A stretch of 33,689 bases of DNA from positions 1 through 33,689 of the IMG/VR virus record IMGVR_UViG_3300032516_001409. One strand, written 5' to 3'. The stretch comes from a virus. This document shows, piece by piece, positions 3,080 to 31,572 of this stretch (position 1 is its first letter; each line of letters opens with the position of its first letter). The notes below the pieces were generated by a model. It made no database searches and was not told the DNA's origin. It worked only from the letters and a program-made list of their open reading frames with translations. The position numbers and the translations under genes were made by a program.

Positions 3080-3094
3080 AGGTAATAGCATCAA
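3080..3094 (+). repeat. Leader repeat AGGTAATAGCWTCAA, copy 1
   Basis: AGGTAATAGCATCAA directly precedes the ATG of the topoisomerase B gene. A copy with one change lies at 7940-7954 before the dUTPase-like gene. The AGG may serve as a weak Shine-Dalgarno, but the conserved downstream part is not needed for that. Confidence 0.35.
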
Positions 3095-3095
3095 T

Positions 3096-4937: not shown

Positions 4938-4972
4938 AGTCACAGCAGATAAGATAGCTAAGGAGGCGTTGA

Positions 4973-14491: not shown

Positions 14492-14518
14492 TTAACCTTC
14501 ACCGTTGCATTTGGGGAC
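14474..14518 (+). promoter_or_regulatory. RNA hairpin overlapping the helicase ribosome binding site
   Basis: GTCCCC (14474-14479) pairs perfectly with GGGGAC (14513-14518), and AACG (14480-14483) pairs with CGTT (14503-14506). This makes a 10-bp hairpin with a 6-nt one-sided bulge and a 19-nt loop. The 3' strand includes the only G-rich ribosome-binding candidate (GGGG 14513-14516) for the TTG start at 14523, so the fold could limit helicase translation or make it depend on ribosomes finishing the upstream gene. Confidence 0.4.
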
Positions 14519-14522
14519 AACC

Positions 14523-16670: not shown

Positions 16671-19591
16671 TGTTTGCAGGTTTTGATGTGTGTGAAGCTT
16701 GTGGGTTACATCGATTCTGCAAGAACCCCTTAATAAAAGGTAGGGGTAACCGTAGTCCTAAGGTTATACTCATTGGAGAATCTCCAGGATTTGATGACGA
16801 TACTGATGGGGTATCGTTTAGTGGTAAGGTGGGAGCTATCCTATCTTCTACTCTAGGTGAGTACGAGAAAGATTGCTACATTACCCATGCAGTTAAGTGC
16901 TTATCTGTAGCTGATCCAGTAACCAGAACTGGAATACGAGCACCGTCAGAGCTAGAGATTGACTATTGTAAGAAGATCCTAAATAAAGAATTGATGATGT
17001 TTGAAGAGGGTACTACTATCGTTACGATGGGTAACGTAGCTCTTACTTCTATTCTTGGTCCCCATCGTGGTATTATGAAAGAGCTAGGGGTGGCCCGTAA
17101 GGTAAATATCTTTGGTAAGATGTTTAAGCTTATCCCCAACTACCATCCTGCAGCTATGTTGCGTAACCCTCAATGGCAACCAGACTTCCAGCGTATTATG
17201 CATTCTGCATTTACTGGTAAGTTTAAGGAAGAGTCAGGTGCATTGATTAAGACTCTTAACTATGAAGAGTCAATGGAACAGATTCAGAGGGCTATGGACC
17301 TTTATCGAAAGGGGGATATTGGTTGGTCACTATTTGATATTGAAACTAATGCTTTCACTGCATGGAAAGGTAAGACGATCATGTATTCGATCGCCCATAA
17401 TGCAGATGACACAGCCTATTCTATTCCAGTATATATTAATAATGACTTTAAAATCAATAAAGAAGATGCAGTAGATCTGTTTCGTAAAAATGAGTACAGC
17501 AGATGGACTTATGAAAATGAAGACATAAAGGATACACCTGATTTTGGTATGTTAAGGGATGGGTTCATAGATCGTCTTTACAAAGAGATAGTAGATCAAT
17601 ATAGATTAGATTTCAATATTAGCCCACAACAATCAGTTAAATTGAACGCAGCTATTAAGGAATTCCTTCAAACAGTTCCTATTGCTGGTCACAATCTTAA
17701 GTTTGATTTGAAGTTTAAATACATAGAGGATAATCTAGATCTAAGTAGGGTACGTGTAGCTTACGATACTCTTATCATGGCCCACCAACTATATGGCCGT
17801 ACCCCTGGGGCATCTCTCAAGCTGAAGGATCTATGTCGTAAGTTATTCAATGTTCAAGAGGACTGGGAAGTATCAATACATGCATACCAAGCTAAGTTCA
17901 AGCGTGTAGACGATAGGCATTATGGTAATATCCCTACCAAGATCTTAGGTGACTATTCCGCTCTTGACTCCTACTACAATAAGATGTTAGTTAACCATCT
18001 TGATAGTTCAATGCATAATGATATGAAGTTCATTTGCAATGCTGTTACTTCAGCAACTATTCCATATGTTGAAGCAGAGTCTAAAGGCATTAAGATCGAT
18101 ACGGATATGTTATCCTATCTTGCCAATGCTTATAAAGACCACTTGGATAACCTACTCGGTAGGATGAAATCACTACCGGCAGTAAGTAAGTTTATTGACG
18201 ATATTGTTAAGCCTCAGATGATAGAACAGTCTAAGAAGACTAGAGGTAAATTCTATACAGAAGATCAATTTAAGGAAGATGCATTCTTACCTTCATCGGT
18301 GAAGAAAGTATCTACTATTATGTATGGGTCTGCCTATCTTGGACTTCCCAAATTAAGGGGATTCACTACTGATAAGGGTGATCCATCTACAAATAGTGCT
18401 ACTCTGGAGGAGATGATTAAGCACCCTGATATTACTCGAGAGGCTAGGGACTTCCTAGGTCTTATGATGTCATTCAGGACATTCAATACCCTCCTATCTA
18501 GATATATCTCTCCAGTACCTGAATCAATGATTGATGGTCTTTACAAGCACGAGTTCAACCTTACTGGAACTGTAACTGGCCGTATGTCTTCTGGTTTCCA
18601 CACTCTCCCACGAGAATCTGACATCAAGAGATTGTATACCTCTAGGTGGTTGGATGAAGGTGGGTTATTCCTCGCAGCAGATATGTCCCAATTAGAGATA
18701 CGTATTGGTGCATCTCTGTCCAAGGAATGGAATTTGATTGATGCTTACAAAGAAGGTATTGACATCCATACCAGGACAGCCTCTATTGTCTTTGATAAAT
18801 CAATGGATCAAGTAAAGTCAGATGAACGAACAATTGGTAAGACAGTTAACTTCGCCATCTTTTATGGTAAGGGTGCAGAGACATTAGCACAAGATATGAA
18901 GATGTCTGTCGAGAAAGCAAGATGGTTTATTGATTCATTCTTCAAGGGCAATCATGCTCTTAGTGATTGGATTGATAAGCAACATCAATTCGTACGTAAT
19001 CATGGTTATATTACCACACCATATGGTAGGTTAATTGCTATCCCTGAAGGGCTTTCTGAAGAACCAAGATTGATAGGTGATGCACTACGTAGATCCGTTA
19101 ACTTTCCAGTACAGTCTACTGCTTCAGATACGGTACTTATTGCATCTAATGAAATCTATTACGGCATGAAGAAGGATAACCTTAATTCTATTTTCTTAGG
19201 TTCTGTACATGACTCTGAGGAATTTGATATCTATCCTGGAGAACTACCTTCAATCATTCGTCGGGTTAAGGAAGAGAATGAAGTTAAGATAGTTGAAAGA
19301 TTTCCATGGATCCTATGCCCACTAGAGATGGACGTATCTCTTGGTGCTTCATGGGGTGGGGCTATTGAGTTCAACGTAAGGGAGTGCTCTGACAAACACC
19401 TAGTACTAACTAATGGTAAGTCACTTCGCAAAGATTTCAGGATGTTGGAATACATAGGTAGTAAATGCTACAACATAAAGGTAGAAGTAACCAATGTAAA
19501 AGAGCTAACTGATAAAGATTTTGCAGATGACTCCTTCGTTAGAGACACGGAAGAGTGGACTGCTGATGTTACAATAGAGTTGAATACCTAG
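16670..19591 (+). CDS. DNA polymerase I with N-terminal uracil-DNA-glycosylase-like domain
   Basis: The phage replicative polymerase, 973 aa. Residues 1-185 look like a family 4/5 UDG: C8xxC11, C77 and C100 as probable iron-sulfur ligands, GESPGFDDDTDG (36-47) and NYHPAAMLR with His159. Next comes a 3'-5' proofreading exonuclease (FDIETNAF with D223 and E225, AGHNLKFDLKF, YSALDSYY), then the family A polymerase with motif A DMSQLEIRI (Asp671), motif B K724...FAIFYG (Tyr732) and motif C SVHDSEEFD (Asp848). Motif C has Ser849 where Pol I enzymes have Glu. It lacks the 5' nuclease domain, which is a separate gene. SPO1, a phage with hydroxymethyluracil DNA, is known to me to have a similar UDG-polymerase fusion. 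Confidence 0.93.
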   Translation: MFAGFDVCEACGLHRFCKNPLIKGRGNRSPKVILIGESPGFDDDTDGVSFSGKVGAILSSTLGEYEKDCYITHAVKCLSVADPVTRTGIRAPSELEIDYCKKILNKELMMFEEGTTIVTMGNVALTSILGPHRGIMKELGVARKVNIFGKMFKLIPNYHPAAMLRNPQWQPDFQRIMHSAFTGKFKEESGALIKTLNYEESMEQIQRAMDLYRKGDIGWSLFDIETNAFTAWKGKTIMYSIAHNADDTAYSIPVYINNDFKINKEDAVDLFRKNEYSRWTYENEDIKDTPDFGMLRDGFIDRLYKEIVDQYRLDFNISPQQSVKLNAAIKEFLQTVPIAGHNLKFDLKFKYIEDNLDLSRVRVAYDTLIMAHQLYGRTPGASLKLKDLCRKLFNVQEDWEVSIHAYQAKFKRVDDRHYGNIPTKILGDYSALDSYYNKMLVNHLDSSMHNDMKFICNAVTSATIPYVEAESKGIKIDTDMLSYLANAYKDHLDNLLGRMKSLPAVSKFIDDIVKPQMIEQSKKTRGKFYTEDQFKEDAFLPSSVKKVSTIMYGSAYLGLPKLRGFTTDKGDPSTNSATLEEMIKHPDITREARDFLGLMMSFRTFNTLLSRYISPVPESMIDGLYKHEFNLTGTVTGRMSSGFHTLPRESDIKRLYTSRWLDEGGLFLAADMSQLEIRIGASLSKEWNLIDAYKEGIDIHTRTASIVFDKSMDQVKSDERTIGKTVNFAIFYGKGAETLAQDMKMSVEKARWFIDSFFKGNHALSDWIDKQHQFVRNHGYITTPYGRLIAIPEGLSEEPRLIGDALRRSVNFPVQSTASDTVLIASNEIYYGMKKDNLNSIFLGSVHDSEEFDIYPGELPSIIRRVKEENEVKIVERFPWILCPLEMDVSLGASWGGAIEFNVRECSDKHLVLTNGKSLRKDFRMLEYIGSKCYNIKVEVTNVKELTDKDFADDSFVRDTEEWTADVTIELNT

Positions 19592-19624: not shown

Positions 19625-19745
19625 AGCAATTCTTGGGCCATGATTAAAATTATTTTTGTCGCAAGAAAAAAAGATGTTGCCTTTTTGGTGTTTTTGGGCA
19701 ATAATTAATGTCCTCGCTGAGCTGTGACTGTTGTAAAGGATGCAG

Positions 19746-20393
19746 ATGATAACATCGCAAGAGTTGAATCTATTACAGAAAGTTGTTAAAAGAGTTGCTA
19801 GTAGGTGGAGAGATAACTCTTGTTATACTGTAGAAGACATTGAGAGTCAGTTCTGGGTTAAGATATTAGAAGTACACCCGATCCTTAAAACACTTGAGAC
19901 TGATGAAGATCTTGAGTTTATGGCCAGGAGGATTCTCAAGAATTACCTCAGTGATATAGTTCGATTCCATAAAAGACGACCTGATACAAGTATATATAGC
20001 TTATATGACAACTTCCAAGAAGTAGTTGAGAGTGCTTTTGCAGAAGTATCTCTCAGCTTTACCACAGAATCTTCAACGGGTTACCAATCAATAGCAGTCA
20101 GTCAGCTCAAAGAGATCCTAGTCGATTGGGCACAGGATGAAAAGCCAAAGATCCAACGATATATTAATGAAGTAATCTCCCCTTCTGCAGAGATATTAGA
20201 ATCCTGGAGGGAGAGAATTGCTAGTACTCGTAATGCCCCATCAAGATCCAGATTAAATAATAAAGATTACATACCCCCTACAGTCCTGGCTAAATTACTA
20301 GGTATACACCACAAAGAGCTGTATGAGTTTATGTGGAGACTGAAGGTATACTTAGAGCGTATGGGATATAACCTATCCGTTACGTTAGCATGA
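19746..20393 (+). CDS. Sigma-factor-like transcription protein
   Basis: Probably a phage sigma factor that redirects host RNA polymerase. The 215-aa product resembles a small sigma-70/ECF protein. Residues 1-80 fit region 2 (VVKRVASRWRD, YTVEDIESQFWVKILE, FMARRILKNYLSDIVRFHKRR). The middle is a variable linker, and the C-terminus has a region 4-like helix-turn-helix (PPTVLAKLLGIHHKELYEFMWRLKVYL). An ATG at 19740 lies too close to the AAGG; ATG 19746 has AAGG (19736-19739) at 6-nt spacing. It is the first gene behind motif copy C, so it could control or be controlled through that motif. A non-sigma DNA-binding protein is the alternative. Confidence 0.68.
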   Translation: MITSQELNLLQKVVKRVASRWRDNSCYTVEDIESQFWVKILEVHPILKTLETDEDLEFMARRILKNYLSDIVRFHKRRPDTSIYSLYDNFQEVVESAFAEVSLSFTTESSTGYQSIAVSQLKEILVDWAQDEKPKIQRYINEVISPSAEILESWRERIASTRNAPSRSRLNNKDYIPPTVLAKLLGIHHKELYEFMWRLKVYLERMGYNLSVTLA

Positions 20394-20400
20394 GGATTTT

Positions 20401-21216
20401 ATGGATTATAAGAATCTCAAAAATGTAACATTTGGAATGGAGTTAGAATTTTCAGACTGTGATAGAAATACACAGCTACCTGAAGGTCTTACTTGGGATA
20501 ATCGTGAGCAGGATATCATCAATAGTGACTGCAGAGCTATCAACCCTACTAGCAAAACATACACTATTGGTGGTGAAATCAACACTGTCCCAGGTAGTAT
20601 TGAAGATCAAGTTAGGCTATTCAAGACTGCTATTAGAATCCTACCATCTGCCACTGTAACTTTCCGTTCTCACTTACACTTACATATTAGATTCGATGGG
20701 ATTCGTGAGGATGTAAATCTTCAGAAAAGGGTCCTTACCTATATTCAAAATAATATTACTACTGTCATGAATCATAACTTTACCCCAACAAAGGTGCGTG
20801 GAATGACGACCTCAGGTTGGAGGTATGTTAGGGCAGACAGGACTAGGATGCAGGATTGGAAGTATGACCTCTGCATGAAAGCGAATAGCCCTAAAGAGTT
20901 CTACGATGCACACCAGATGGTCAAGGATGGTACTATCCTACCCCAGACCACTAAGAGGTATTGTCTTAACTTATTCTCACTTAAAAAGCACGGCACTATA
21001 GAGTACCGTGGTCTTTACATGACTATGAATCCAGAGTCTGTATATGACTCATTGGTATTCTTTGCAGACTTCATGAGTGAAGCTGTGGGTGACCAAAGAC
21101 CTATATGTGATGCTGTAGATCTAGGATCTTACTTATTCCCACTGGAAATACCATACCATCATGAGCAGCAACTCGGGTGGGAGAAGACAAATACTAAGAG
21201 TGGTTCAGATGCGTAA
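20401..21216 (+). CDS. Putative amidoligase 1 (glutamine-synthetase-like fold)
   Basis: Likely an ATP-dependent enzyme that joins a carboxylate to an amine. The 271-aa protein shows the amidoligase signatures: FGMELEF (Glu14, Glu16), GGEINT (Glu59), SHLHLHI with His91, His93 and His95, and the C-terminal RYCLNLFSLKKHGTIEYRGL (Glu201, Arg203), which supply metal and nucleotide ligands in this superfamily. It is paralogous to the next gene: both share MQ(D/N)WKY, C-M-x-A, VKDG and RYC-x-N blocks. The sigma-like gene ends 7 nt upstream. In this operon it may act on modified DNA bases or on small molecules that feed the modification; that is inference. Confidence 0.75.
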   Translation: MDYKNLKNVTFGMELEFSDCDRNTQLPEGLTWDNREQDIINSDCRAINPTSKTYTIGGEINTVPGSIEDQVRLFKTAIRILPSATVTFRSHLHLHIRFDGIREDVNLQKRVLTYIQNNITTVMNHNFTPTKVRGMTTSGWRYVRADRTRMQDWKYDLCMKANSPKEFYDAHQMVKDGTILPQTTKRYCLNLFSLKKHGTIEYRGLYMTMNPESVYDSLVFFADFMSEAVGDQRPICDAVDLGSYLFPLEIPYHHEQQLGWEKTNTKSGSDA

Positions 21217-22060
21217 TTACACATTTGGTAGCGAGCTAGAACTAGGAAACATCGATACTAGGTTGGGTCCTCCACCCAGGTGTCACTTTACAGGTGATCC
21301 AGATGTCTGTAATATGAACCCACATGCTGCAGCTGATCCAGAAAAGAAAGATTATCACCTAGGATCTGAAGTTAATACAGATGCCCACGATTCTATTAGT
21401 TCTATTATGGATACAATAAATGGTGTATTTCACCATTACCGTAGCTCCCCTCCAGTAGTTAACCATAGATGTGTCCTTCATCTCCATATTGGGTACAAAG
21501 ATTTACCTAATAACCTAGAAGACCTCAAGAAGATCTTGTCTTATACCGATGACAATGGTATGTGGTATATTAATAACCACTGGAAATACACTATCCCAAG
21601 TGATGTCGATTCTCACACTCGTAAATTCTTGTCTTTTGATTGTATCACTATGCAGAATTGGAAATATCAGTTCTGCATGAATGCTACCACCACAGATGAC
21701 TTTAGAAGAAGTCATGCTAAGGTCAAGGACGGAAGGGTAATATTTCCTACCATGCGTCGCTATTGTGTTAATATGTACCCTATCTTTAAGCACGCAGCTA
21801 TCGAGTTTAGGTGGTTCTTCCCCACAACTGATCTCACTCAGATTGAATCCGCATTCCAATTTATTACTCGTTACATGGACCAAGCCCTAGGTGATCGTAT
21901 TCCAGTATCTGAGTGGGTGGGTAAGTATAACCTACCCAAAGAGGTACCATTTGATCATAAGCTGGAGAAGGCGTGGCGGCTAACCAACTACAAGTTTAAT
22001 AGTAGGAAGATTGCTAATAGTAATCGAGAGAAGATCATTAATGGCGAGATCCAACTATAA
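21209..22060 (+). CDS. Putative amidoligase 2
   Basis: A second amidoligase-type protein, next to and overlapping the first. I start it at ATG 21209 (MRNYTFGSELELG), which aligns with the N-terminus of amidoligase 1; the open frame extends back to 21161 inside that gene. Motifs: FGSELEL (Glu9, Glu11), LGSEVNT (Glu54), LHLHIG (His91, His93) and RYCVNMYPIFKHAAIEFRWF (Glu199, Arg201), with conserved MQNWKY and VKDG. The 283-aa product has diverged strongly from its neighbour, including a Cys/Pro-rich stretch at 20-40, so the duplication is not recent and the two probably have different substrates. Confidence 0.75.
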   Translation: MRNYTFGSELELGNIDTRLGPPPRCHFTGDPDVCNMNPHAAADPEKKDYHLGSEVNTDAHDSISSIMDTINGVFHHYRSSPPVVNHRCVLHLHIGYKDLPNNLEDLKKILSYTDDNGMWYINNHWKYTIPSDVDSHTRKFLSFDCITMQNWKYQFCMNATTTDDFRRSHAKVKDGRVIFPTMRRYCVNMYPIFKHAAIEFRWFFPTTDLTQIESAFQFITRYMDQALGDRIPVSEWVGKYNLPKEVPFDHKLEKAWRLTNYKFNSRKIANSNREKIINGEIQL

Positions 22061-22069
22061 GAGTATCAT

Positions 22070-22777
22070 ATGTGTGGTGTAGTAGGGGTTAGTAGTAAAT
22101 ATGATTCTAATAACCAAATAGTATTAAGCAATATTCATAACCTTATCCTTGAATCACAAATTAGAGGTAGACACTCAACAGGAGTGTCTTTTATATTAGA
22201 TGGTAAGATTAAGACTATTATTGAGCCACTAAGAGCATCTGATTTTTTGAAGAAGCATTGGGAAGAAATCAGATCAGATCTTGGTGATAGAGATATCTAC
22301 CTAATAGGACACACCAGATACTGTACGAGTGGGTTCGAATACAACCAGCCTATTTATGATGATTATTTTAGTGTTTGTGTTAACGGAGTTATTACTCAAG
22401 CAGACCCTGAAAAGTGGTATGACCTATTCCATGTCAAGACTTATAATAGGAATGATGCGGTTATAGTATTAGATAGAGTAAGAAATAACCTAAGCCCATT
22501 AGATATTAAGAGTAGCAATCATGTGTCTCTAGCTGCTATGGTACTACACAAAGGTGGGACTATTAAGGCAATGAGAAATGATTCACGTCCTCTCTATTAC
22601 TACAATTATGACAAAACTACTTATTTTGCTTCTACTGTATCCATCTTCCAGAGAGCTATGGGTATTACTCCTAAATTTACCCACCCAAACACTGAGTATT
22701 TAATTAGAGACGGTGTAACAGAAATAGTAGATATGAGAGACAACGTTAACGAACTGCAGATTAACTATGCAAAATAA
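22070..22777 (+). CDS. Stand-alone class II glutamine amidotransferase domain
   Basis: Hydrolyses glutamine to release ammonia for a partner synthetase. The 235-aa protein begins MCGVVG, so after Met removal Cys2 is the N-terminal nucleophile of an Ntn hydrolase. Further family motifs are RGRHSTG (33-39), GHTRYCTSG (80-88, Gln-binding Arg), and VNGVI (oxyanion-hole Asn-Gly, 105-106). It is a lone glutaminase domain, like the N-terminal part of GlmS or PurF with no synthetase half, so the acceptor must be another protein. The flanking amidoligases are the obvious partners. It overlaps the AADT gene by 11 bases. Confidence 0.85.
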   Translation: MCGVVGVSSKYDSNNQIVLSNIHNLILESQIRGRHSTGVSFILDGKIKTIIEPLRASDFLKKHWEEIRSDLGDRDIYLIGHTRYCTSGFEYNQPIYDDYFSVCVNGVITQADPEKWYDLFHVKTYNRNDAVIVLDRVRNNLSPLDIKSSNHVSLAAMVLHKGGTIKAMRNDSRPLYYYNYDKTTYFASTVSIFQRAMGITPKFTHPNTEYLIRDGVTEIVDMRDNVNELQINYAK

Positions 22778-23813
22778 ACTTGATTTTAGGCTTGCCGAAA
22801 ACCGTAGGGAAGGTTACATAAGATGGACCGTGTGGTCTGCTCGTACAACTGATGCTGATCCATCTATTGAGATGATGAAGTATATCTTCGATCGTCAAGA
22901 GCTCAATATAGAGCAAAGATTCTGGTTGTGTTTCTTGTATGCCAATACTTACCAACTCCCTATGGCATATACGATGTATAATGAATTCCCAGATTATATT
23001 AATGTAGATCAAGATAGACTGGAATGGTGGAACAATGATAACTACAAGAATCTGAGATACCAGTCTGATATGAAATGGGTCAAGGGTAAGTTACCTATTC
23101 TGTATGAATCTTATCGCAAGAATGTAGGTCCCAATCAAAAGGAATTCTTCGATAAAGTGTGCTCATCCCCAGACCCATATGATAACTACCAGACTTTACG
23201 TATTCTTATCACTAACCACTTTAAGCATATGGGTAGATATACCGCTTTCTTTTATCAACAGGTGCTGAAGCATTGTTGTGGTCTCAATATTGATGCTCCT
23301 ACTCTACTCCTTGGTGAGTATGGAAGTGAGTCACATACTAATGGTGCATGTTATGCATCTAACAAAGAAAATTGGTTGACTTCTTATTATGAAGAGGGTA
23401 AAACTAAGAAGATAAAGAGAGATGTGACATATACTACAGATATGAAGCAATACCTAGAAGATTTCAGCTCTGGTGTTCTTAAGGAGATACATGAAAGATA
23501 CCCTGATACTATTGGCTGCGTGGATAATTTTATCCTTGAGACAACTTATTGCTCCTTCAAGAAACTCTTCAGAAGACGTCAAGGCAGATATTTAGGTAGC
23601 TATTTAGACAGACAGGCTGAGGATATCAAGTCTGTCGAGAATTTATTTGATAAGGTAGATTGGGACATATGTTGGGACTACCGTAAAGAGAAACTACATG
23701 AGTTCACTACAAAAGATAGAGGATTTACTGATAGTGTTAAGTGTCAATGGTTCTTAGACACTGGAGACTTCCCAGGTCTGGGAATATATGATGATTTAAG
23801 GAATGGGGGTTAG
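22767..23813 (+). CDS. Amino acid:DNA transferase (AADT; aGPT-Pplase type)
   Basis: Predicted to attach an amino acid to the activated 5-methylene group of a phosphorylated hmdU in DNA, the committing step of thymidine hypermodification. The 348-aa helical protein carries blocks I recognise from the family: SIEMMKYIFDR, LNIEQRFWLCFLYANTY, MAYTMYNEFPDY, DQDRLEWWNNDNYKNLRYQSD and KGKLPILYESYRK. It belongs to the alpha-glutamyl/putrescinyl-thymine pyrophosphorylase group defined computationally and tied to DNA modification in phages such as ViI and M6. The start overlaps the glutaminase stop. The transferred amino acid cannot be read from sequence. Confidence 0.82.
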   Translation: MQNKLDFRLAENRREGYIRWTVWSARTTDADPSIEMMKYIFDRQELNIEQRFWLCFLYANTYQLPMAYTMYNEFPDYINVDQDRLEWWNNDNYKNLRYQSDMKWVKGKLPILYESYRKNVGPNQKEFFDKVCSSPDPYDNYQTLRILITNHFKHMGRYTAFFYQQVLKHCCGLNIDAPTLLLGEYGSESHTNGACYASNKENWLTSYYEEGKTKKIKRDVTYTTDMKQYLEDFSSGVLKEIHERYPDTIGCVDNFILETTYCSFKKLFRRRQGRYLGSYLDRQAEDIKSVENLFDKVDWDICWDYRKEKLHEFTTKDRGFTDSVKCQWFLDTGDFPGLGIYDDLRNGG

Positions 23814-23814
23814 T

Positions 23815-24183
23815 ATGCTAGAGATTCGTGTAAATAAAGAGCCAACTGGTCTATTCGCTGGTATTTATGCAGGTAAGGAATACAAACCAGGGGATACGAT
23901 CACAGATCTAAGTGTTGGTGATGAGAAGAAAGAGCGTGACTTTAGAACTATTGAGTTGGACCACGCACATATTGATCACCCAATCGGGAGATTTCTGAAC
24001 CACAGTTGTGATCCTACTGCTTTTGTTGATCGTAAACTTAATCTTCTTAGAGCCAATAAAGATATCCAAATTGGTGACATGATTACGTTTGACTACTCAA
24101 TAAATGAGTCCGTTATTGCAGCACCTTTTGAATGTAGGTGTGGTAGTACTAATTGTAGGAATTATATCTCGAGGGATAAATGA
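23815..24183 (+). CDS. SET-domain protein with post-SET motif
   Basis: A putative S-adenosylmethionine-dependent methyltransferase, by family usually acting on protein lysines. The 122-aa product is a minimal SET domain: TGLFAGIYAGKEYKPGD at the start, the pseudoknot segment HPIGRFLNHSCDPT (62-68 holding NHSCDPT), GDMITFDY (87-94), and a post-SET zinc-binding ECRCGSTNCR (107-114). I chose ATG 23815 rather than 23803 because a GGGGG lies 4-9 nt before it while AAGGA nearly touches the earlier ATG. It sits between the AADT and the opine-dehydrogenase-like gene. Its substrate could be a phage or host protein, or a modified base. Confidence 0.88.
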   Translation: MLEIRVNKEPTGLFAGIYAGKEYKPGDTITDLSVGDEKKERDFRTIELDHAHIDHPIGRFLNHSCDPTAFVDRKLNLLRANKDIQIGDMITFDYSINESVIAAPFECRCGSTNCRNYISRDK

Positions 24184-25172
24184 AAGTAACAATCTGTGGT
24201 CTTGGTCATGCCACACATGCATTAGTACCCCTACTTTGTAGTAAGGGGCATGAAATTCATGTTCTTACTCGTAGGGACAATGGTATAGCTGATCGCAAGA
24301 AGTTAGACATAACTACCAATACTGGTCTAAGTGGAAGTTGTACTATTTCTAGTGATCCTGCTACTATTAAATACTCTGATGTTATTGTGATGCCTGTCCC
24401 ATCTGATACGTATGATAGCTATCTGGAGAAGATGGCTCCTCATATCCAGTTGGGTCAATCACTTGTTATAACACCAGGTCAGGGTAGGTTTTACCGTTAT
24501 GCTCAGAAGCATATTGATGGGTATACCTTAGCTAATATTAACATCTCTTATGTTTCACCTATGCCAGTCAATTGTCGTACAGTTGAAGAGGGTAAGTCTG
24601 TAGATGTTAAAGCATACAAGAAGAATTTCTTCGTTACTTGTGAAGGTAACTATATTGACCTTGAGCTAATAAGGGATCTATTTGATGCTAAGAATATCAC
24701 TTATCAGAAAGGTGGTTCAACCTTAGCCAATCTTATGCCAATTAACCCAGTTATTCACACTGCACGTCTGTACAACCTATTCAAGGACACTGATGTAATT
24801 AGAGAGAATCCTCTGTTTTACGAACAGATGAGTGAATCAGATATAGAGCTGATGCACACTATACAGAGAGAGTTAGGTCGGATAGGTTGTGCATATAAGG
24901 TGGTAATACCAGATCTATTCGAATTCCTAGCTAAGTTTGTATACGAGACAGACTATTCTAATATGCATGAATTCTTTACTCAATATTCTGCTTATAAGGG
25001 ATTCAGAAGTCCAGTCAAACCTGTAAGATTTGGGTATTCTCTGGATAAGAGTAGTCGTTATATAGGTGAGGATGTTGAGTTAGGTCTTAAGGTGTACCAA
25101 GAGTATGCAAGAGATAGGGATGTGAAGACTCCAGTTATTGACATGATCGTAGATAGGTTGCTTAGCCTATGA
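24180..25172 (+). CDS. Opine (octopine/nopaline) dehydrogenase-like NAD(P)-dependent enzyme
   Basis: Family members reductively join an amino group to the carbonyl of a 2-keto acid using NAD(P)H, forming a secondary amine (opine). The 330-aa protein has an N-terminal Rossmann fold (MKVTICGLGHATHALVPLL) and VIVMPVPSDTY, then the C-terminal domain with NPVIHTARLYN, containing the catalytic His-like position, the YEQMSESDIELMHTIQRELGRIG helix, and a SRYIGEDVELGL...TPVIDMIVD end that resembles the opine dehydrogenases closely. It overlaps the SET gene by ATGA-type coupling. In this operon its amine substrate could be the one made on DNA by AADT and the decarboxylase. Another NAD-dependent 2-hydroxyacid or glycerol-phosphate dehydrogenase is less likely. 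Confidence 0.75.
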   Translation: MKVTICGLGHATHALVPLLCSKGHEIHVLTRRDNGIADRKKLDITTNTGLSGSCTISSDPATIKYSDVIVMPVPSDTYDSYLEKMAPHIQLGQSLVITPGQGRFYRYAQKHIDGYTLANINISYVSPMPVNCRTVEEGKSVDVKAYKKNFFVTCEGNYIDLELIRDLFDAKNITYQKGGSTLANLMPINPVIHTARLYNLFKDTDVIRENPLFYEQMSESDIELMHTIQRELGRIGCAYKVVIPDLFEFLAKFVYETDYSNMHEFFTQYSAYKGFRSPVKPVRFGYSLDKSSRYIGEDVELGLKVYQEYARDRDVKTPVIDMIVDRLLSL

Positions 25173-25354
25173 GTTATGAGGAATGGCTAAAACAACAAGA
25201 TATTAAATCTTGGGACCTTAAGTTTAGAGCTAAGGTAGGTAATGCTCGTAGGTTTGGTATGGTGTGCCCACACTGTGGTTTGAGTAGTAAGGGCATCGGT
25301 GCCATGAAAAGACACCACTTTAATAACTGTAGGAGTCAAAATGCGTCTATCTGA
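25169..25354 (+). CDS. Small C2HC-type zinc-finger protein, 61 aa
   Basis: Coupled by ATGA overlap to the dehydrogenase gene. The C-terminal half carries CPHCGLSSKGIGAMKRHHFNNC, a Cys-x2-Cys...His-x...Cys finger often seen in phage proteins and homing endonucleases that read DNA. The N-terminal half is a short charged helix. Alone it is probably a small DNA- or protein-binding adaptor. No nuclease motif is present, so it is not a complete homing enzyme. Confidence 0.65.
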   Translation: MSYEEWLKQQDIKSWDLKFRAKVGNARRFGMVCPHCGLSSKGIGAMKRHHFNNCRSQNASI

Positions 25355-26399
25355 ATCTGATATTAAAGATCTATTAGATGGAAGCACTTTTGGCATTGAA
25401 TTGGAGATTGCTAACTGCAATGCTACAGTTGAGTTGCCAGTGGGGAATACATTCTGTACCAAAGAAGGTAGTGTAATAAATAAAAACAGAGTAGGTAATG
25501 ATCCTCTTAGAGAATACAATCATATTGGTTGTGAGATCCAGGTTAAGCCACACAATACTGAGGAAGAGCTACTCAAGTATGTGTTATATCTGTTGCATCT
25601 TACCCAGTGTGAAGAGATAAGAGACCCCAACACATTTCATAGCCACATAAAGATACCTAAGCTACTTCTGGATGAGAATGTTGGCATACTTAGGCACATC
25701 ATAAACTACTCCAATAAATGGAATAGTAAGCTGATGCCACTTATCTCTCACCTACCTCCTATGGATCTGATTATGAATCAGAAGTACCATAGTCCGGAAC
25801 AGGCAGCTATGTTCAAGAGGGCATACAAGGATAAGTACCGGTCACGACACTCTATTCTTCCTGAGTCTTCAATTGCTAGGATCAATAACCCAGAGATCAA
25901 GACAAGAGCTGCATTGATTAATGCTATGGCTCCTGCTAAGAAGAATGGTTCTCCATCTTGGTTCGTACTACCTCGTAATGCTGTCAACTTCCGTAAGATG
26001 AGAGATGGTGATATTGGTACGATCGAAGTAAGATGTTTCAGTGGTAGTTCTGATCCTGAGGTAATTCGTAATATTATTGAATTCCCTAGACTATACGTTA
26101 CAGCTGCCCTACTAGATATTGATCCTATCCCAGTCTTCAAGGATAAGAAGTGGCCTGGGTATTATGGCTGGACGATGGAGACTAATGAAGAGTCTATGCG
26201 TTGGATCAAGACCGATCATGACAAAGTAGACCGTAAGCTCATCATACCAGCTATTAAAGAGATGTTGATTAACAGAGAGATTACTCTGGGAAGTCTAGGG
26301 TACCCAGAGACGTTCTGGAATAGGCAACTAGGCGATAAATTATATTACGAATTACTGAACTATAGTAAGGAGGTGGGCATTGAAGGGTATAGGAGTTGA
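25341..26399 (+). CDS. Putative amidoligase 3
   Basis: A third amidoligase-type protein, longer (352 aa) and more distant than the first two. It has STFGIELEI (Glu20, Glu22), HIGCEIQ (Glu65), NTFHSHIKI (His100, His102), a central basic region that could bind DNA or a nucleotide (FKRAYKDKYRSRH), AVNFRKMRDGDIGTIEVRCF with the conserved Glu and Arg, and a C-terminal helical extension. AGGAG precedes its ATG at good spacing. It lies just upstream of the PLP decarboxylase, which it overlaps by 20 bases. Three different amidoligases in one operon suggest sequential or alternative amide-forming steps. Confidence 0.72.
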   Translation: MRLSESDIKDLLDGSTFGIELEIANCNATVELPVGNTFCTKEGSVINKNRVGNDPLREYNHIGCEIQVKPHNTEEELLKYVLYLLHLTQCEEIRDPNTFHSHIKIPKLLLDENVGILRHIINYSNKWNSKLMPLISHLPPMDLIMNQKYHSPEQAAMFKRAYKDKYRSRHSILPESSIARINNPEIKTRAALINAMAPAKKNGSPSWFVLPRNAVNFRKMRDGDIGTIEVRCFSGSSDPEVIRNIIEFPRLYVTAALLDIDPIPVFKDKKWPGYYGWTMETNEESMRWIKTDHDKVDRKLIIPAIKEMLINREITLGSLGYPETFWNRQLGDKLYYELLNYSKEVGIEGYRS

Positions 26400-27669
26400 T
26401 CCTAAGACTATTCTTGAAGATCTGACCTCTATCAAGAAAGACGATATCAATTGGAAATCTGGTAGGTGTTTTGGTTATGTGTATAACCCAGGTGAAGTAG
26501 GCCTTAAGTTAATTGAGGACTCATTCATCAAGTATATGTCTGATACTGTACTAGATGTGAAAGCATTCCCTAGCTCCAAGATACTGGAGCATGAACTCAA
26601 TGGTATTGCTATTGAGATCTTAGGTGGCGATCAAACTGATTCTGGTTCATGCTTTACTACTGGAGGGACTGAGTCTATATTTCTATCTGTGCTAGCCCAC
26701 AGGGAGTGGGCCAAGAAGACTAAGAATATTACTGAACCTAATATAGTTATTCCTGATACGATTCACCCTGCCTTCAATAAAGCATGTTTCTATCTAGGTA
26801 TTAAGCCCATTGTAGTTGCTGCTGGTCCAGACTTTAGAGCAGACCACAAGAAGATGGAATATTACATAGATGATAATACTATAATGATAGCTGGTTCTGC
26901 ACCTTCTTATGGGGTAGGTCAGATTGACCCTCTGTGGGAGTTAGGTTGTATTGCTGAAGATTTAAAGATTGGATTTGTTATTGATGCGTGTGTCGGTGGT
27001 GGTATTATCCCATTCATGAAGAGTGGCCCAGAGTTGTCTTTTAAGATACCTGGGGTAACAGCCATTACTCTCGATTGGCATAAATGGTACATGAGCATCA
27101 AGGGTTCTTCCTCGGTAGTGTACCGAGATAAGTCTATGTTGGACTATCAGTGTTTTGTTCATTCAGCTTGGATGGGGTATTCAATTGTCAACCCTTCTGT
27201 AACATCAACTAGGTCCACCGGTCATATTGCTGCCACAGTAGCTATTATTAAATACTTTGGCTTGAATGGTTACCGTAAGATCACAGATGAGATCATGTAT
27301 GAGGCAGATAAGATTAAGAATTATCTGTCCTCATGCGAAGTACTAGAGCTCATTGGTGAGCCAGAGTTGAACGTATTTGCATTCTCCTCCTCTAGTGAGG
27401 AAGTAAATATCTTCACTCTACAAGAGGTGCTCAAGAATAAAGGGTGGTTCATCCAACCTCAGCTTGGTTATGGTGATATGCCACCATCTTGTCATATCTC
27501 TGTTAACTACAGTAATGTGGGTATGATTAATGAGTTCATCATAGATCTGGATAGAGTTCTTAAGGCCGGATTACTTAGTAGTAAGACTGAATTAGATATG
27601 CTAAGTGATATGCCTATAAAGAAACGTGATAAGATACTTAAATCAGAACGCATTGAGGGCAGTCTATGA
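26380..27669 (+). CDS. PLP-dependent amino acid decarboxylase (sphingosine-1-phosphate-lyase-like)
   Basis: Group II PLP decarboxylase or lyase. The 429-aa protein shows FTTGGTESIFLSVLAHREWA (PLP phosphate site), DTIHPAF with PLP-stacking His129, FVIDACVGGGIIPF with Asp202, and DWHKWYMSIKGSS with the PLP lysine at 235. It most resembles sphingosine-1-phosphate lyase and archaeal tyrosine decarboxylases. In phage ViI-type thymidine hypermodification a PLP enzyme removes CO2 from the DNA-attached amino acid, leaving an aminoalkyl group; the position between amidoligase 3 and the DNA kinase fits that. The start is TTG 26380, supported by AGGAGG (26368-26373) 6 nt upstream and no nearby ATG. Confidence 0.88.
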   Translation: MKGIGVDPKTILEDLTSIKKDDINWKSGRCFGYVYNPGEVGLKLIEDSFIKYMSDTVLDVKAFPSSKILEHELNGIAIEILGGDQTDSGSCFTTGGTESIFLSVLAHREWAKKTKNITEPNIVIPDTIHPAFNKACFYLGIKPIVVAAGPDFRADHKKMEYYIDDNTIMIAGSAPSYGVGQIDPLWELGCIAEDLKIGFVIDACVGGGIIPFMKSGPELSFKIPGVTAITLDWHKWYMSIKGSSSVVYRDKSMLDYQCFVHSAWMGYSIVNPSVTSTRSTGHIAATVAIIKYFGLNGYRKITDEIMYEADKIKNYLSSCEVLELIGEPELNVFAFSSSSEEVNIFTLQEVLKNKGWFIQPQLGYGDMPPSCHISVNYSNVGMINEFIIDLDRVLKAGLLSSKTELDMLSDMPIKKRDKILKSERIEGSL

Positions 27670-28520
27670 GTTCGTACATTATGCTGAAGGGAACATCAGG
27701 GACGGGAAAGGGCACCCGTATCTCCCAACTACAGATGTTTTTTAAACACATTGGTCTGAAGCATGAGATGCATTGGGTTGATGATACCACTAAGATAGTA
27801 CCAGTGTGCCTTGTATTCCCTGAAGTGAATATGGCTTTCTTGGGTAAGTGGGTTAAATCTCAATATTCTAAGTTATGGTCTTGGACCTCTCTTGATTACA
27901 TCCATGCTAGATTCCAATTCCAATACACCCCAGGATTTATTACTGAGTACAAGAACTACAATCTAGTAGCTGAAGGTTATCCCATGACTCTTGGATCCTG
28001 CTATAGATTCAAGCATATACATGAGACCTTTGGATTTACCAAACAATTCTATCAGTACTACCACTATGACCTACACAAAAAAGAGAATACCAAAGAACAA
28101 AATGATGAATGCTTCGAGCAACTCCAGGGTAGGATGATGGAGCGTAGTGGTCATAGAATCAAGGGATCTTGTTGGGGTAGTAACTGGGGTGCATATGCAG
28201 AATATGAAACCCACCAGAAGGAACATGATGAAGATCCAAGAGGGGTTGAACTTAAACTATCCCGCCATCGTTACGATGATGACATTAATGTTTTTGGTGC
28301 TAGTATTCTACCATTTATTGGCCGTCCGGATTTGGTTGAAGCATTCCATAAGTATTGTTTAGAGAATAATACTCTACGGAAGATGGGTGACAATCAAGTA
28401 CATAATGAGTTCGTGATAGAAACTCTTAATGCCCCTAAAGTACCAAATAAAGTTATACCCAATATTGGCTGTGACCCTAAGCCGAAAGTAGGTGAAGATG
28501 CTATCGACAGTAGAGCCTAA
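27666..28520 (+). CDS. P-loop kinase, probable 5-hydroxymethyl-dU DNA kinase
   Basis: Predicted to phosphorylate the 5-hydroxymethyl group of hmdU within DNA, making a leaving group for the AADT. The 284-aa protein starts with a strand and the P-loop GTSGTGKGT (9-17, Lys15), followed by aromatic-rich sequence (KLWSWTSLDYIHARFQFQ), an AEGYPMTLGS segment in a Walker B-like position, and a C-terminal Pro/Lys-rich tail. It overlaps the next gene, which encodes the helical domain of the same enzyme family, and both neighbours upstream are modification genes. A nucleotide kinase acting on free hmdUMP is the main alternative, but the dNMP kinase at 29844 already fits that role. Confidence 0.75.
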   Translation: MSSYIMLKGTSGTGKGTRISQLQMFFKHIGLKHEMHWVDDTTKIVPVCLVFPEVNMAFLGKWVKSQYSKLWSWTSLDYIHARFQFQYTPGFITEYKNYNLVAEGYPMTLGSCYRFKHIHETFGFTKQFYQYYHYDLHKKENTKEQNDECFEQLQGRMMERSGHRIKGSCWGSNWGAYAEYETHQKEHDEDPRGVELKLSRHRYDDDINVFGASILPFIGRPDLVEAFHKYCLENNTLRKMGDNQVHNEFVIETLNAPKVPNKVIPNIGCDPKPKVGEDAIDSRA

Positions 28521-29481
28521 CAAGGAGCGTATACTTAAATTCTTTGAATTTATCTATGATAGACATATGATGTGGTATAAAAGAACAATCCTTAAAGAAC
28601 CACACCCATGGTCTAATGATCCTATCCTTAATGATTATAAATCCTGCAATGTGTACAGAGAACTGGATAAAGGGACTGTATACATTATAGACGAATTGAA
28701 GGATAATAAAGACTGGAATAATGTCCTATTCAACTTGGTGTTCTATAGATTCTTTAATAAGTATGGATTTTTTGAGAATATATTAGATGGTACTCTGGCG
28801 GATTACAAATCTTTTGACCTACTATACTATGAACACTTGTTAGACTATAGGATAATAGAGAAGACTAGCTTATTCAACTCTGCTTATTTGGTCTGCCAAG
28901 TACCAGTAAATCCAGATTATCGCAAGAGTGATAAACATATCCAAGTCTTATTTTCTCTTCTGGACCTCAGAGATAGGATTCAAGCTGGTTATATAGCTAA
29001 ACTATATGCTTGTGAAACTGCATATGACACATTCGCTAAAATTAAAGAACTAAAATTAGTAGGTGGTTTTCTAGCCATGCAACTATATGCTGATCTGTCT
29101 TATCTTAAGTTGATAAGTTTTACTGAGAATGATTATGTTGAGATTGGCCCAGGTGCTATTGATAGCCTAGAGTTCATGTTTGGAAATACTAAGTATAGTA
29201 AGCAACTGGATCGGTGTAAAGATCTAAGAGATATGCAACCAGAGATGTTTGAAGAGTTATACAAGACTACTGGGAAGAATTGGAAGAGTATAGCCTACAC
29301 TGGCCCCACAAGTAATGCACCTTATCTATCCCTGATGAATCTACAGAATTCAATGTGTGAATGGCGTAAATATAGAAATCTACTACAATCAAGTAAAGAC
29401 CCAACTTACAGGTGTAAGAAGAGGTATTATGTGGTTGACCCAACTAGGAGTGCTTATGAGTCCGGAAGTGAGAGTATTTAA
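28498..29481 (+). CDS. 5-hmdU DNA kinase helical-domain protein (aGPT-Pplase type)
   Basis: An all-helical protein matching the helical domain found with 5-hmdU DNA kinases and alpha-glutamyl/putrescinyl-thymine pyrophosphorylases. The key block is RTILKEPHPWSNDPILNDYK followed by SCNVYRELDKGT, preceded by KERILKFFEFIYDRH; this PW-x-DPIL-x-x-(Y/F)...NVYRE pattern is diagnostic to me. It is encoded separately from its likely kinase partner but overlaps that gene by 23 bases, so the two may form a complex. I chose ATG 28498 over GTG 28492 because of AGG spacing. The 327-aa product could instead be a second transferase with a different amino acid preference. Confidence 0.78.
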   Translation: MLSTVEPNKERILKFFEFIYDRHMMWYKRTILKEPHPWSNDPILNDYKSCNVYRELDKGTVYIIDELKDNKDWNNVLFNLVFYRFFNKYGFFENILDGTLADYKSFDLLYYEHLLDYRIIEKTSLFNSAYLVCQVPVNPDYRKSDKHIQVLFSLLDLRDRIQAGYIAKLYACETAYDTFAKIKELKLVGGFLAMQLYADLSYLKLISFTENDYVEIGPGAIDSLEFMFGNTKYSKQLDRCKDLRDMQPEMFEELYKTTGKNWKSIAYTGPTSNAPYLSLMNLQNSMCEWRKYRNLLQSSKDPTYRCKKRYYVVDPTRSAYESGSESI

Positions 29482-29788
29482 GATGTTGGCTGGCCCTGAT
29501 ATCGTCGCAACTGTGCAGGATGAATCAGGAATTGTACGTGAACCAATGTACATGATTATCCAACAGCATGGTAATAATCAGAGCATCACCTTGGCTCCAG
29601 TCATGAATCATAGTGATCAGAAAGAGCAATTTGGTATGCTTAATATAGGTCTTTGTGTATTAGTATACCCAGCTGCTAAGAAACTAGCTGATGGTTATAA
29701 TGCTGAAGTTGAGAAGATGAGAGTAGGTAGGTCTGGTCTTATTCTTCCAAGTAGTTCTATTCCAAACCTTGGGCCGATCAACTCCTAA
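29456..29788 (+). CDS. Small Sm-like-fold phage protein, 110 aa
   Basis: Starts at ATG 29456 with AGGAG (29446-29450) at 5-nt spacing; the frame is open further upstream inside the previous gene. The pattern (VRVFKMLAGPDIVATVQDESG, PMYMIIQQ, SITLAPVMNHSDQ, GLCVLVYPAAKKLADGYNAEV) matches a family of small phage proteins common in T4-like and marine phages that I associate with an Sm/Hfq-like beta barrel. No experimental role is known to me. It ends the operon just before motif copy D. Confidence 0.65.
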   Translation: MSPEVRVFKMLAGPDIVATVQDESGIVREPMYMIIQQHGNNQSITLAPVMNHSDQKEQFGMLNIGLCVLVYPAAKKLADGYNAEVEKMRVGRSGLILPSSSIPNLGPINS

Positions 29789-29828
29789 GGAATTTGACAA
29801 GCTATAAGACGTTCTATAATCAAATTCC
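29789..29828 (+). promoter_or_regulatory. Motif copy D inside a 9-bp inverted repeat; strong promoter candidate
   Basis: GGAATTTGA (29789-29797) and TCAAATTCC (29820-29828) are a perfect inverted repeat. Between them lies TATAAGACGTTCTA (29803-29816), identical to copy A. The region also holds a consensus -35 TTGACA (29794-29799) and -10 TATAAT (29815-29820) with a short 15-bp spacer, directed at the dNMP kinase. The inner sequence has partial dyad symmetry (TATA, ACGT, TATA). The site could be a host-type promoter with a built-in operator, or in RNA a hairpin ending the upstream operon. Confidence 0.6.
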
Positions 29829-29843
29829 GAGTTGGGGCATACT

Positions 29844-30473
29844 ATGGGTAAACCATTATTAGTTATTTTAGAGTCACCTGATGGGTTGGGTAAGACAACT
29901 CAATCTAAGATATTGTCTGAAAAGTACCAAGCTAAGCTTATCATCCAACCTTCAGCTGAGAACTCCCTAGGGTTTCTACGTAATGAGGTGAAGAATAATC
30001 CTCTATACAATCCATCATTCCGTCAAGCACTTCATACAATGTCCCATATCGTTGACGCATTCAATTATCTTGATGGTTCTTGCAATGTAGTTATGGATAG
30101 ATCTTTTATATCTACCTATGTTTATGGGCAAGTGACACACCTAGAAGAGTTTGAGAACGATATCCTTCTCAGAGTACACCAAGAAGTATATCGATCATTC
30201 GCTTCAAAATACAAGACTATTTATGTGTTTCTAGACGCCAATGGTAAGTATAAAGAGGGTAACACTGATCAGTTCGAAGGGACATTCAACTGGGGTCATC
30301 TAAGAGATGCATATGTTTCTTTCTTCGCTGGTGTAGCTAATAGTGGAAATCCTCTTCTCACCGAAGACGAAGTTATTATATCTGTTAACGTACATAGCAA
30401 AAGTATAAAAGAAGTCTCTACTGAGATTGATTTCTTAATTAGTAGACACATGAAGGATAGTCATGCCACATAA
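29844..30473 (+). CDS. Thymidylate-kinase-like dNMP kinase
   Basis: Phosphorylates a pyrimidine deoxynucleotide, here probably hmdUMP to hmdUDP. The 209-aa protein is thymidylate-kinase sized and has ESPDGLGKTTQS (P-loop), the DRSFISTYVYGQV motif (DR...S...Y of dTMP kinases) and a YVFLDANG strand. I start at ATG 29844, with GGGG 7 nt upstream; TTG 29832 is in frame but lacks a ribosome binding site. It is the first gene after motif copy D and overlaps the hydroxymethylase gene by 11 bases, so the two enzymes that would make the unusual nucleotide are co-translated. Confidence 0.85.
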   Translation: MGKPLLVILESPDGLGKTTQSKILSEKYQAKLIIQPSAENSLGFLRNEVKNNPLYNPSFRQALHTMSHIVDAFNYLDGSCNVVMDRSFISTYVYGQVTHLEEFENDILLRVHQEVYRSFASKYKTIYVFLDANGKYKEGNTDQFEGTFNWGHLRDAYVSFFAGVANSGNPLLTEDEVIISVNVHSKSIKEVSTEIDFLISRHMKDSHAT

Positions 30474-31572
30474 AGATATTAATGTTTATGACAATTTGAA
30501 TGAGATGGTATTTGATACATGTGATCATGTAATCAGAGATGGTGAGGTTGTTACATCTCGTAATGGTAGTAGCAGAGAGATCTGTGATTACAATGCGATC
30601 TTAACTAATCCTCGCAACCGTCATCTATACCTACATGGTCGTAAGTCTAATATCTTTGCAACAATAGGTGAAACTCTCTGGGTTATGGCTGGGGTAGATA
30701 CTCTAGACCCATTAATGAAATTCCTTATCCCAAGATCTGTTGATTTCTCTGATGATGGTGGTAGTACTTGGCGTGCAGCATATGGTGCTCGTCTGTGGGC
30801 TAATGGTCAGATTGACCACGTAGTTAGATCTCTTTGGGACGACCTTAATAGCCGTCAGGCTGTGATGACTATTTGGGATCCTAGTAAGGATACTCTAGAG
30901 TCAATGAAGGGTGAGAAGACCAAAGACCGACCTTGTTCCAATTGGTTAGGCTTCCAGGTACGTAATAATAAACTAAATCTTAAGCTTCAAATGAGATCCA
31001 ATGATGTCATCTGGGGTTTAAGTCATATTAATGTATTCGAATTTACATTTCTCCAAGAGATCATCTGTGAGATGATTAGGTTGAAGCATCCACTTATTGG
31101 TCTTGGGTCTTACACCCATGCTGCATTATCTATGCATGTGTATGACCCTGGGACAATTACCCAGGCAGTGGATATTGTTAAGAGTAAAGAGAATCGTGAC
31201 TTTCTTTTTACTACTCCTAGTAGAAACATGAAGCTGGGTAGTATTGACCCAGATACTGTTCAATCCTTCTTTCATGAACTGTATGATTCCATGTGTCACC
31301 TTATTGACCCAGGATATGATCTCTTCCCACGCAGAGAATTACTTGATATCTTCATGCAGTTCAAGGTTCCTATAGAAGATAACCAGTTATTTGATTATTG
31401 TAGAGTACTTGAGTACTTTATCCTTGAAAAGAAGGGTATTTGGATCCCACTCAAGAGTATTATGAGTTTGTGGTTGAGTCTTAGTGAGGACCTCAAGATT
31501 GCTGTGTCCCACAATGGCTTTACTCCTAAGAGATGGTTGGAGGCTATTGGTGGACACATTAAGGAAAAATAG
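30463..31572 (+). CDS. Thymidylate synthase homologue, probable dUMP hydroxymethylase
   Basis: Predicted to add a hydroxymethyl group to dUMP from methylene-tetrahydrofolate. The 369-aa protein has YGARLW, the catalytic Cys158 in RPCSNWLGFQVR, MRSND (178-181) and GLSHINVFEFTFL. Asn190 aligns with Asn177 of E. coli thymidylate synthase, which selects uracil over cytosine; dCMP hydroxymethylases have Asp there. The residue after the catalytic Cys is Ser instead of the usual His, and there is a C-terminal extension of about 100 residues beyond ordinary thymidylate synthase. With the DNA kinase and AADT nearby, hydroxymethylation is more likely than methylation, though a plain thymidylate synthase cannot be excluded. 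Confidence 0.85.
   Translation: MPHKDINVYDNLNEMVFDTCDHVIRDGEVVTSRNGSSREICDYNAILTNPRNRHLYLHGRKSNIFATIGETLWVMAGVDTLDPLMKFLIPRSVDFSDDGGSTWRAAYGARLWANGQIDHVVRSLWDDLNSRQAVMTIWDPSKDTLESMKGEKTKDRPCSNWLGFQVRNNKLNLKLQMRSNDVIWGLSHINVFEFTFLQEIICEMIRLKHPLIGLGSYTHAALSMHVYDPGTITQAVDIVKSKENRDFLFTTPSRNMKLGSIDPDTVQSFFHELYDSMCHLIDPGYDLFPRRELLDIFMQFKVPIEDNQLFDYCRVLEYFILEKKGIWIPLKSIMSLWLSLSEDLKIAVSHNGFTPKRWLEAIGGHIKEK

Follow-up and report, generated by a model that had tools for sequence, protein, structure and literature searches.

The 33,689-bp viral fragment held as IMG/VR record IMGVR_UViG_3300032516_001409, referred to at its full length as the window, has no close DNA relatives among 50,697 phage records. 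Between positions 20401 and 31572 it carries a run of genes that, judging from their sequences, almost certainly converts thymine in phage DNA to an elaborate new base. All genes of this run lie on the + strand, with adjacent genes overlapping or at most 43 bp apart; the initial annotation had placed the genes that it named in one run of overlapping genes, and the family matches, the strand, and the overlaps bear this out. A sister operon with 10 common genes at 26–47% identity lies on the 78-kb contig IMGVR_UViG_3300050821_008578 (hereafter L240). The genes of the run, with the evidence for each, are as follows.

20401..21216, + strand: aml1, an amidoligase of the gamma-glutamylcysteine synthetase (GCS)/YbdK fold (motifs common with aml2; AlphaFold model; L240 ortholog).
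21161..22060, + strand: aml2, an amidoligase and sister of aml1 (Amidoligase_2; L240 ortholog; tree).
22070..22777, + strand: stand-alone class II (N-terminal nucleophile, Ntn) glutamine amidotransferase (GATase) with a PurF/GlmS-type glutaminase domain (GATase_6; PurF and GlmS in the PDB; conserved residues).
22767..23813, + strand: AADT, a DNA-base transferase of the GATase-linked clade (PF18724; AlphaFold; clade tree).
23803..24183, + strand: small SET-domain protein with post-SET cysteines (PF00856; L240 ortholog).
24180..25172, + strand: opine (octopine) dehydrogenase (ODH), window-specific (PF02317; PDB 3c7a).
25169..25354, + strand: zinc-finger-like short protein of 61 aa, window-specific at this place (translation).
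25341..26399, + strand: aml3, a divergent third amidoligase in the window-specific block (homology to aml1/aml2, phage Simon, and Vibrio phage 2.275; tree).
26380..27669, + strand: pyridoxal phosphate (PLP) enzyme of the group II decarboxylase/sphingosine-1-phosphate lyase family, window-specific (PF00282; 3mad; MfnA model).
27666..28520, + strand: HMUD2, a DNA kinase for 5-hydroxymethyldeoxyuridine (5-hmdU, hmdU) (PF18747).
28492..29481, + strand: HMUDK_hel protein (PF18723).
29357..29788, + strand: small conserved protein of unknown function, phrog_527 (true start probably 3' of 29357).
29832..30473, + strand: dTMP-kinase-like (d)NMP kinase (PF02223; TIGR00041 below its cut-off; L240 ortholog, 47%).
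30463..31572, + strand: thymidylate synthase (TS) homologue, a predicted dUMP hydroxymethylase (PF00303; PHROG; MilA; L240 ortholog, 42%).

The run encodes together a TS-family hydroxymethylase, an hmdU DNA kinase, HMUDK_hel, and an AADT, which are genes of a 5-hmdU pathway. The TS homologue matches PF00303 at 3.5e-14 and the PHROG thymidylate synthase family at 2e-72, and its nearest solved protein is the CMP 5-hydroxymethylase MilA. The (d)NMP kinase is thymidylate-kinase-like (PF02223, 1.3e-7), and the remaining matches are HMUD2 to PF18747 (2.9e-29), HMUDK_hel to PF18723 (2.2e-53), the AADT to PF18724 (4.5e-11), and the SET protein to PF00856 (1e-7). The reading of the run as a thymidine-hypermodification operon with extra enzymes, put forward in the initial annotation, holds up. 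The hmdU core is full, and the amidoligases belong to the operon, recurring beside AADT, HMUDK_hel, and TS genes in many unrelated viral contigs. The core set had also been equated with the known phage route, and in that form this is not supported. The AADT falls in a GATase-linked clade with no members in the cultured phages searched. The PLP enzyme differs from the known enzyme of ViI or M6, because its nearest solved proteins are sphingosine-1-phosphate lyase (3mad, 8e-62) and MfnA, and no relative was found at 1e-4 in Ackermannviridae or M6 phages.

The GATase that accompanies this AADT matches GATase_6 at 8e-4 and PurF at 1.3e-5, and its PDB neighbours are the glutaminase domains of PurF and GlmS. 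The alignment contains conserved Cys2, R32-G33, H81-x-R83-Y84, N105-G106, and N128-D129; the protein thus has the Cys after Met, the Arg and Asp for glutamine binding, and the Asn-Gly oxyanion hole of a class II glutamine amidotransferase. In the window it lies directly beside the AADT (22070–23813). A scan with the single AADT protein matched nothing, and alignment-based scans did match; the refined scan of IMG/VR yielded 456 relatives of the window AADT, of which 80 were fetched and clustered at 90% identity, with at least 3 kb upstream required. In this sample, the GATase adjoins the AADT in 51 of 51 clusters of the window's AADT clade and in 0 of 16 other AADT1 clusters. The clade spans both TET/JBP cassettes (PF12851) and TS cassettes. 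No close clade member was found in the cultured phages searched, the best AADT identities being 26–29%, and the cultured phages Cygsa01 and Montesquieu have an AADT1 outside the clade and, as expected, no GATase.

This association does not extend to the amidoligases. They are absent from 28 of the 51 GATase-AADT clusters, and in one locus (L017) the GATase, a GNAT gene, and the AADT are packed end to end with no room for an amidoligase. Conversely, the GATase is absent from all 16 amidoligase cassettes of the type with AADT2 and a flavoprotein or radical SAM enzyme. A fusion of the GATase to the AADT or to an amidoligase was looked for, and none was found. In the initial annotation, the GATase was thought to supply nitrogen for amidation of a carboxylate. 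Because it strictly tracks one AADT clade, independently of amidoligases, a GATase feeding the amidoligases is disfavored, and since each occurs without the other, their partnership was rejected as the main interpretation.

The AlphaFold model of the window AADT (pLDDT 93) matches the PaMx11 5-PmdU glycinyltransferase (8z2n), and according to this model the protein has the glycinyltransferase fold. AADT1 is homologous to AADT2 (hhalign, 6e-10), and both carry the motif ETxxCxxxK; the sole strict clade difference in the AADT alignment is position 99, which is Q in the window's clade and D elsewhere. A glycinyltransferase fold and catalytic motif, in a family whose name and known members are those of amino acid transferases, would suit an AADT that still uses an amino acid, with the GATase amidating or otherwise altering that amino acid (e.g., via a host ligase) or acting as a gamma-glutamyl transferase on a DNA amine. 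We consider this unlikely, given the 28 clusters in which no phage amidoligase is present and the position of the GATase nearest to the ammonia-channelling glutaminases of PurF and GlmS.

Two further loci with an AADT deserve mention. Within a GATase-AADT-amidoligase operon, L104 (12498–16381) has five tandem paralogues that weakly resemble a TET-associated glycosyltransferase, which suggests that the same side chain, or one next to it, is glycosylated. In Glutamicibacter phage Montesquieu (L239, 7989–9925), an actinophage record without GATase, an ACC-deaminase-like PLP gene comes immediately after the AADT; this phage would serve for comparison.

Among the three amidoligases, aml2 alone reaches the Pfam cut-off for Amidoligase_2 (22.4 vs 22 bits), a model matched by 23 of 46 members of the family. 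Both aml1 and aml3 have no Pfam match on their own and align with aml2, and all three carry invariant GxExE, GGE, HxH, R, and ExR motifs. The fold was modelled for aml1 only, the motifs covering all three; the aml1 model (AlphaFold, pLDDT 91.7) matches YbdK, GCS, and glutamine synthetase, and on this model aml1 is of the carboxylate-amine ligase fold. In the family tree, aml1 and aml2 are sisters, each with its own L240 ortholog, and aml3 lies on the opposite side on a very long branch, so recent duplication of the three was rejected.

In 33 contigs fetched by amidoligase alignment alone, HMUDK_hel or AADT was present in 22, compared with a background for HMUDK_hel of 380 in 50,697 phage records (~0.75%), and the association is therefore beyond chance. 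The cassettes are of two kinds: one combines AADT2 with a DAO flavoprotein or radical SAM enzyme, without GATase, and includes phage Simon; the other combines AADT1 with GATase, without DAO or radical SAM. In L102, which is of the first kind, the AADT2 matches the solved PaMx11 5-PmdU glycinyltransferase at 1e-85 and the DAO protein matches the solved PaMx11 flavin-dependent lyase at 4e-54. A route of the PaMx11 type presumably yields an aminomethyl base, so in L102 an amine is at hand for the amidoligase, whose place in the route comes after an aminoalkyl base. GNAT genes, whose products would acylate an amine, are present in the same cassettes. These contexts suggest that the amidoligases probably cap the aminomethyl base. 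As a separate observation, Vibrio phage 2.275.O (L007, 9872–14132) has an amidoligase of the same family adjoining 7-deazaguanine genes and an Ntn-hydrolase gene, a context from which the family may serve guanine modification too.

The order of chemistry proposed in the initial annotation can now be weighed. In this scheme, an amino acid joined to the base by the AADT is converted to an amine by the decarboxylating PLP enzyme, the ODH couples a 2-oxo acid to that amine, and the GATase and amidoligases amidate the resulting carboxylate. The run has every enzyme class that the scheme needs, and the sequence of steps makes chemical sense; AADTs of the ViI type reportedly take amino acids, and class II GATase and amidoligase are paired elsewhere too, LUZ24-like phages having both terms. 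However, the GATase goes with the AADT and not with the amidoligases in both directions, the amidoligases are found in cassettes already making an amine, and the sister operon has neither PLP enzyme nor ODH yet retains GATase, aml1, aml2, and AADT. The order of chemistry is thus only partly supported: the base-modification core and the amidoligases are supported and the amidating role of the GATase is not. The scheme as a whole is improbable. Far less probable is that the SET protein and the amidoligases modify proteins, such as phage or host DNA-binding proteins, and not the base. SET domains normally methylate protein lysines, and the amidoligase superfamily is predicted to modify peptides or proteins, going by the title of Iyer et al. 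(2009) as cited in PMC7824862, but amidoligase and SET recur with AADT and HMUDK_hel.

The comparison with L240 separates the conserved part of the operon from what is particular to the window. The ortholog identities are 43% for aml1, 41% for aml2, 36% for GATase, 42% for AADT, 38% for SET, 35% for HMUD2, 39% for HMUDK_hel, 26% for the small protein, 47% for the kinase, and 42% for TS, and L240 also carries a DNA ligase ortholog and part of the polymerase with a uracil-DNA glycosylase (UDG)-like domain. In L240, a GNAT gene precedes SET, HMUD2 comes directly after the AADT, and the operon has GNAT and a MazG-like gene where the window has ODH, zinc finger, aml3, and PLP enzyme. In the window, these four genes lie between SET and HMUD2 and GNAT is missing. 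Therefore, SET, aml1, and aml2 form a conserved part of the operon, and the change represented by the ODH block is specific to one lineage, the block having been found only in the window among the loci checked.

The ODH matches Octopine_DH (PF02317) at 1.6e-22 and PDB 3c7a at 1e-18, and has both the Rossmann domain and the Octopine_DH helical domain of an opine dehydrogenase; its His193, Arg293, and Asp298 align with H212, R324, and D329 of octopine dehydrogenase, which we take to be the catalytic residues. The PLP enzyme matches Pyridoxal_deC (PF00282) at 6e-17, and since sphingosine-1-phosphate lyase is its nearest relative and its match to the MfnA profile (1.4e-58) is below the cut-off of that model, the label "decarboxylase" is uncertain. 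None of 65 other virus records yielded ODH (PF02317), in a search whose control matched the window and two bacteria, and none of 68 yielded a PF00282 enzyme. No ODH relatives were found in phages and IMG/VR; those found are bacterial, in 34 loci (best, L129 from Desulfocapsaceae, 30%), none of which has AADT, GATase, or amidoligase nearby. The expectation that the extra genes would co-occur with AADT in other genomes was thus borne out for GATase, amidoligases, and SET and not for ODH and the PLP enzyme.

The block may replace the finishing step of the sister operon. On the simplest reading of these sequences, the same amine would receive a different cap, e.g., an N-carboxyalkyl (opine-like) group, which would be worked on further by aml3 and the PLP enzyme. 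Nearly as likely is that the block makes a free metabolite instead. As cargo producing a small molecule that does not touch DNA (an opine-like precursor, a metabolite, or an anti-host compound), the block would fit its absence from every other hypermodification locus checked, the bacterial relatives of ODH with no such genes nearby, and the fact that opine dehydrogenases normally act on free amino acids. On the other hand, its genes lie between SET and HMUDK within a run having 4–20 bp overlaps, one of them is a further member of the operon's amidoligase family, and the block is present where GNAT, which probably carries out the finishing step in the sister operon, is lacking. We regard such cargo as possible, though on balance not the expected outcome; it concerns the block only and is compatible with our explanation of the core. 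Action of the ODH and PLP enzyme on DNA is plausible, on the evidence of one locus.

Our best explanation of the whole, offered tentatively and as something close to an even call, is that an amine is placed on the base by the GATase and AADT and is then acylated by the amidoligases. The TS homologue would form hmdUMP, and the kinase-like enzyme and a polymerase would bring hmdU into DNA, where HMUD2, together with HMUDK_hel, would phosphorylate the hydroxymethyl group. The class II GATase would free ammonia from glutamine and pass it to the adjacent AADT, which would displace (pyro)phosphate to give 5-aminomethyl-dU or achieve an equivalent nitrogen delivery. PurF (amidophosphoribosyltransferase), in which a class II glutaminase is coupled to pyrophosphate displacement by ammonia, provides the model for this two-protein amination through its action on phosphoribosyl pyrophosphate. 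Subsequently, aml1 and aml2 would ligate a carboxylic acid to the amine at the expense of ATP; the acid would probably be an amino acid. In most relatives, the side chain would be completed by an amidoligase and/or GNAT. In the window, the ODH would reductively add a 2-oxo acid, creating a new carboxylate, and the block would allow extension by another amide and then decarboxylation or cleavage. Gene content, gene order, catalytic residues, and the strict pairing of GATase with AADT are seen directly in the sequences. We infer the hmdU, kinase, transferase, and ligase chemistry by homology; ammonia as the nucleophile, the amine as the amidoligase acceptor, and action of the ODH and PLP enzyme on DNA we only infer.

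Amination by GATase and AADT with subsequent capping of the amine would explain why the GATase can occur without amidoligases, just as an amine derived from a flavin lyase or radical SAM enzyme would explain amidoligases without GATase, and a common amine acceptor would explain why GNAT and amidoligases share cassettes. Several points nevertheless weigh against this explanation. On the clade tree, the GATase label changes only two times, so the 51 of 51 clusters represent long retention in one lineage and not repeated gain. The clade score cut-off of 200 was picked after the gap between 234 and 167 had been seen, and several A6 seeds had been taken from loci in which GATase was already evident. 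The single Q-for-D change does not show a switch of nucleophile, and a conserved neighbouring GATase could have as its partner a host ligase or some other enzyme. Lastly, there are the usual free substrates of opine dehydrogenases, and the ODH and PLP enzyme are without a second occurrence in the hypermodification loci checked. A wider proposal is put forward as rather doubtful: the large AADT clade, found in this analysis only in uncultured phages, would be a glutamine-dependent DNA-base aminating enzyme that receives ammonia from the separate GATase in the manner of PurF and makes 5-aminomethyl-pyrimidine from both TS-derived hmU and TET-derived hydroxymethylated bases, followed by amidoligase acylation and, in the window, by ODH action giving an opine-like carboxyalkyl-amine.

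Outside the run, a replicative DNA polymerase A with an N-terminal UDG-like domain (16670..19591, + strand; PF03167 and PF00476) has a Cys-rich start. The same fusion is present in L091, L093, L094, and L109, recurring in other phages with T-hypermodification genes, and may serve to keep hmdU and dU separate. Upstream of the operon, at 19740–20393, lies a gene with weak resemblance to sigma factors (phrog_354), which is conserved in the sister phage (L240, 695–1375). Positions 558–6661 encode a phage NAD-dependent DNA ligase and gyrase B and gyrase A subunits, the ligase ortholog lying inside the modification operon in L240. In addition, there are two HNH-domain inteins (8591–10834 and 14505–16670), one in a RecA homologue and the other in a replication-region gene.

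The class of hypermodification pathway is already known, and for an amide bond on a phage DNA base one experimental precedent, CmoY, was found. As far as we have checked, the amine-then-cap route has no description for cultured phages. No literature linking opine dehydrogenase with phage DNA modification was found in a search that did not include Iyer et al. (2013) and Lee et al. (2021), which may already mention GATase or amidoligase neighbours of AADT, above all in TET phages. If our explanation is true, ammonia transfer, ATP-dependent acylation, and possibly reductive opine-type coupling would join phage DNA-base chemistry, and products could be predicted for widespread uncultured phages, as represented by the 456 AADT relatives in IMG/VR. 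If glutamine-derived ammonia reaches the base, these enzymes could put primary amines and amide-linked groups into DNA, and an opine-like carboxyalkyl-amine would be a type of DNA base not known before.

For thymidine hypermodification, Pseudomonas phages PaMx11 and M6 (Mesyanzhinovviridae) employ a glycinyltransferase (8z2m/8z2n), a flavin-dependent lyase (8z2o/8z79), and radical SAM enzymes. The window likewise has the hmdU synthase homologue, DNA kinase, HMUDK_hel, and an AADT of the same fold, and PaMx11/M6-type cassettes bearing an amidoligase exist in L102, L110, and phage Simon. However, the window has neither flavin lyase nor radical SAM enzyme and so is not of this type; instead, its AADT, from a different clade, adjoins a GATase, and the run also has three amidoligases together with ODH, PLP enzyme, and SET. 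With Salmonella phage ViI and other Ackermannviridae, which make 5-(2-aminoethoxy)methyl-dU, it shares HMUD2, HMUDK_hel, the TS homologue (34%), and the AADT1 family (25–27%). Unlike the window, those phages have no GATase, amidoligase, or ODH beside AADT, and no relative of the window PLP enzyme was found in them; with an AADT of the GATase clade and a different PLP enzyme, the window does not follow the ViI-type route to 5-NeOmdU.

Synechococcus phage S-B43 has CmoX and CmoY, the latter attaching glycine to a carboxyl-bearing base of the phage DNA (PMC12783734). This is similar to the route proposed here in that an ATP-dependent amide bond is made on a phage DNA base, but there cytosine bears the carboxyl group, and the ligase is homologous to asparagine synthetase instead of being a GCS-fold amidoligase (PMC12783734). 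For the GATase and AADT the model is PurF, a single polypeptide acting on a sugar, whereas in the window two proteins, coupled as we propose, would act on a DNA base. Closest in gene content to this pair are the cassettes of uncultured TET phages (L011–L031 and L164–L237), ordered TET/JBP-GATase-(amidoligase)-(GNAT)-AADT-P-loop kinase, which have the same GATase-AADT pair and often an amidoligase, although their hydroxymethyl group presumably comes from a TET oxygenase acting on a methylated base and not from a TS homologue.

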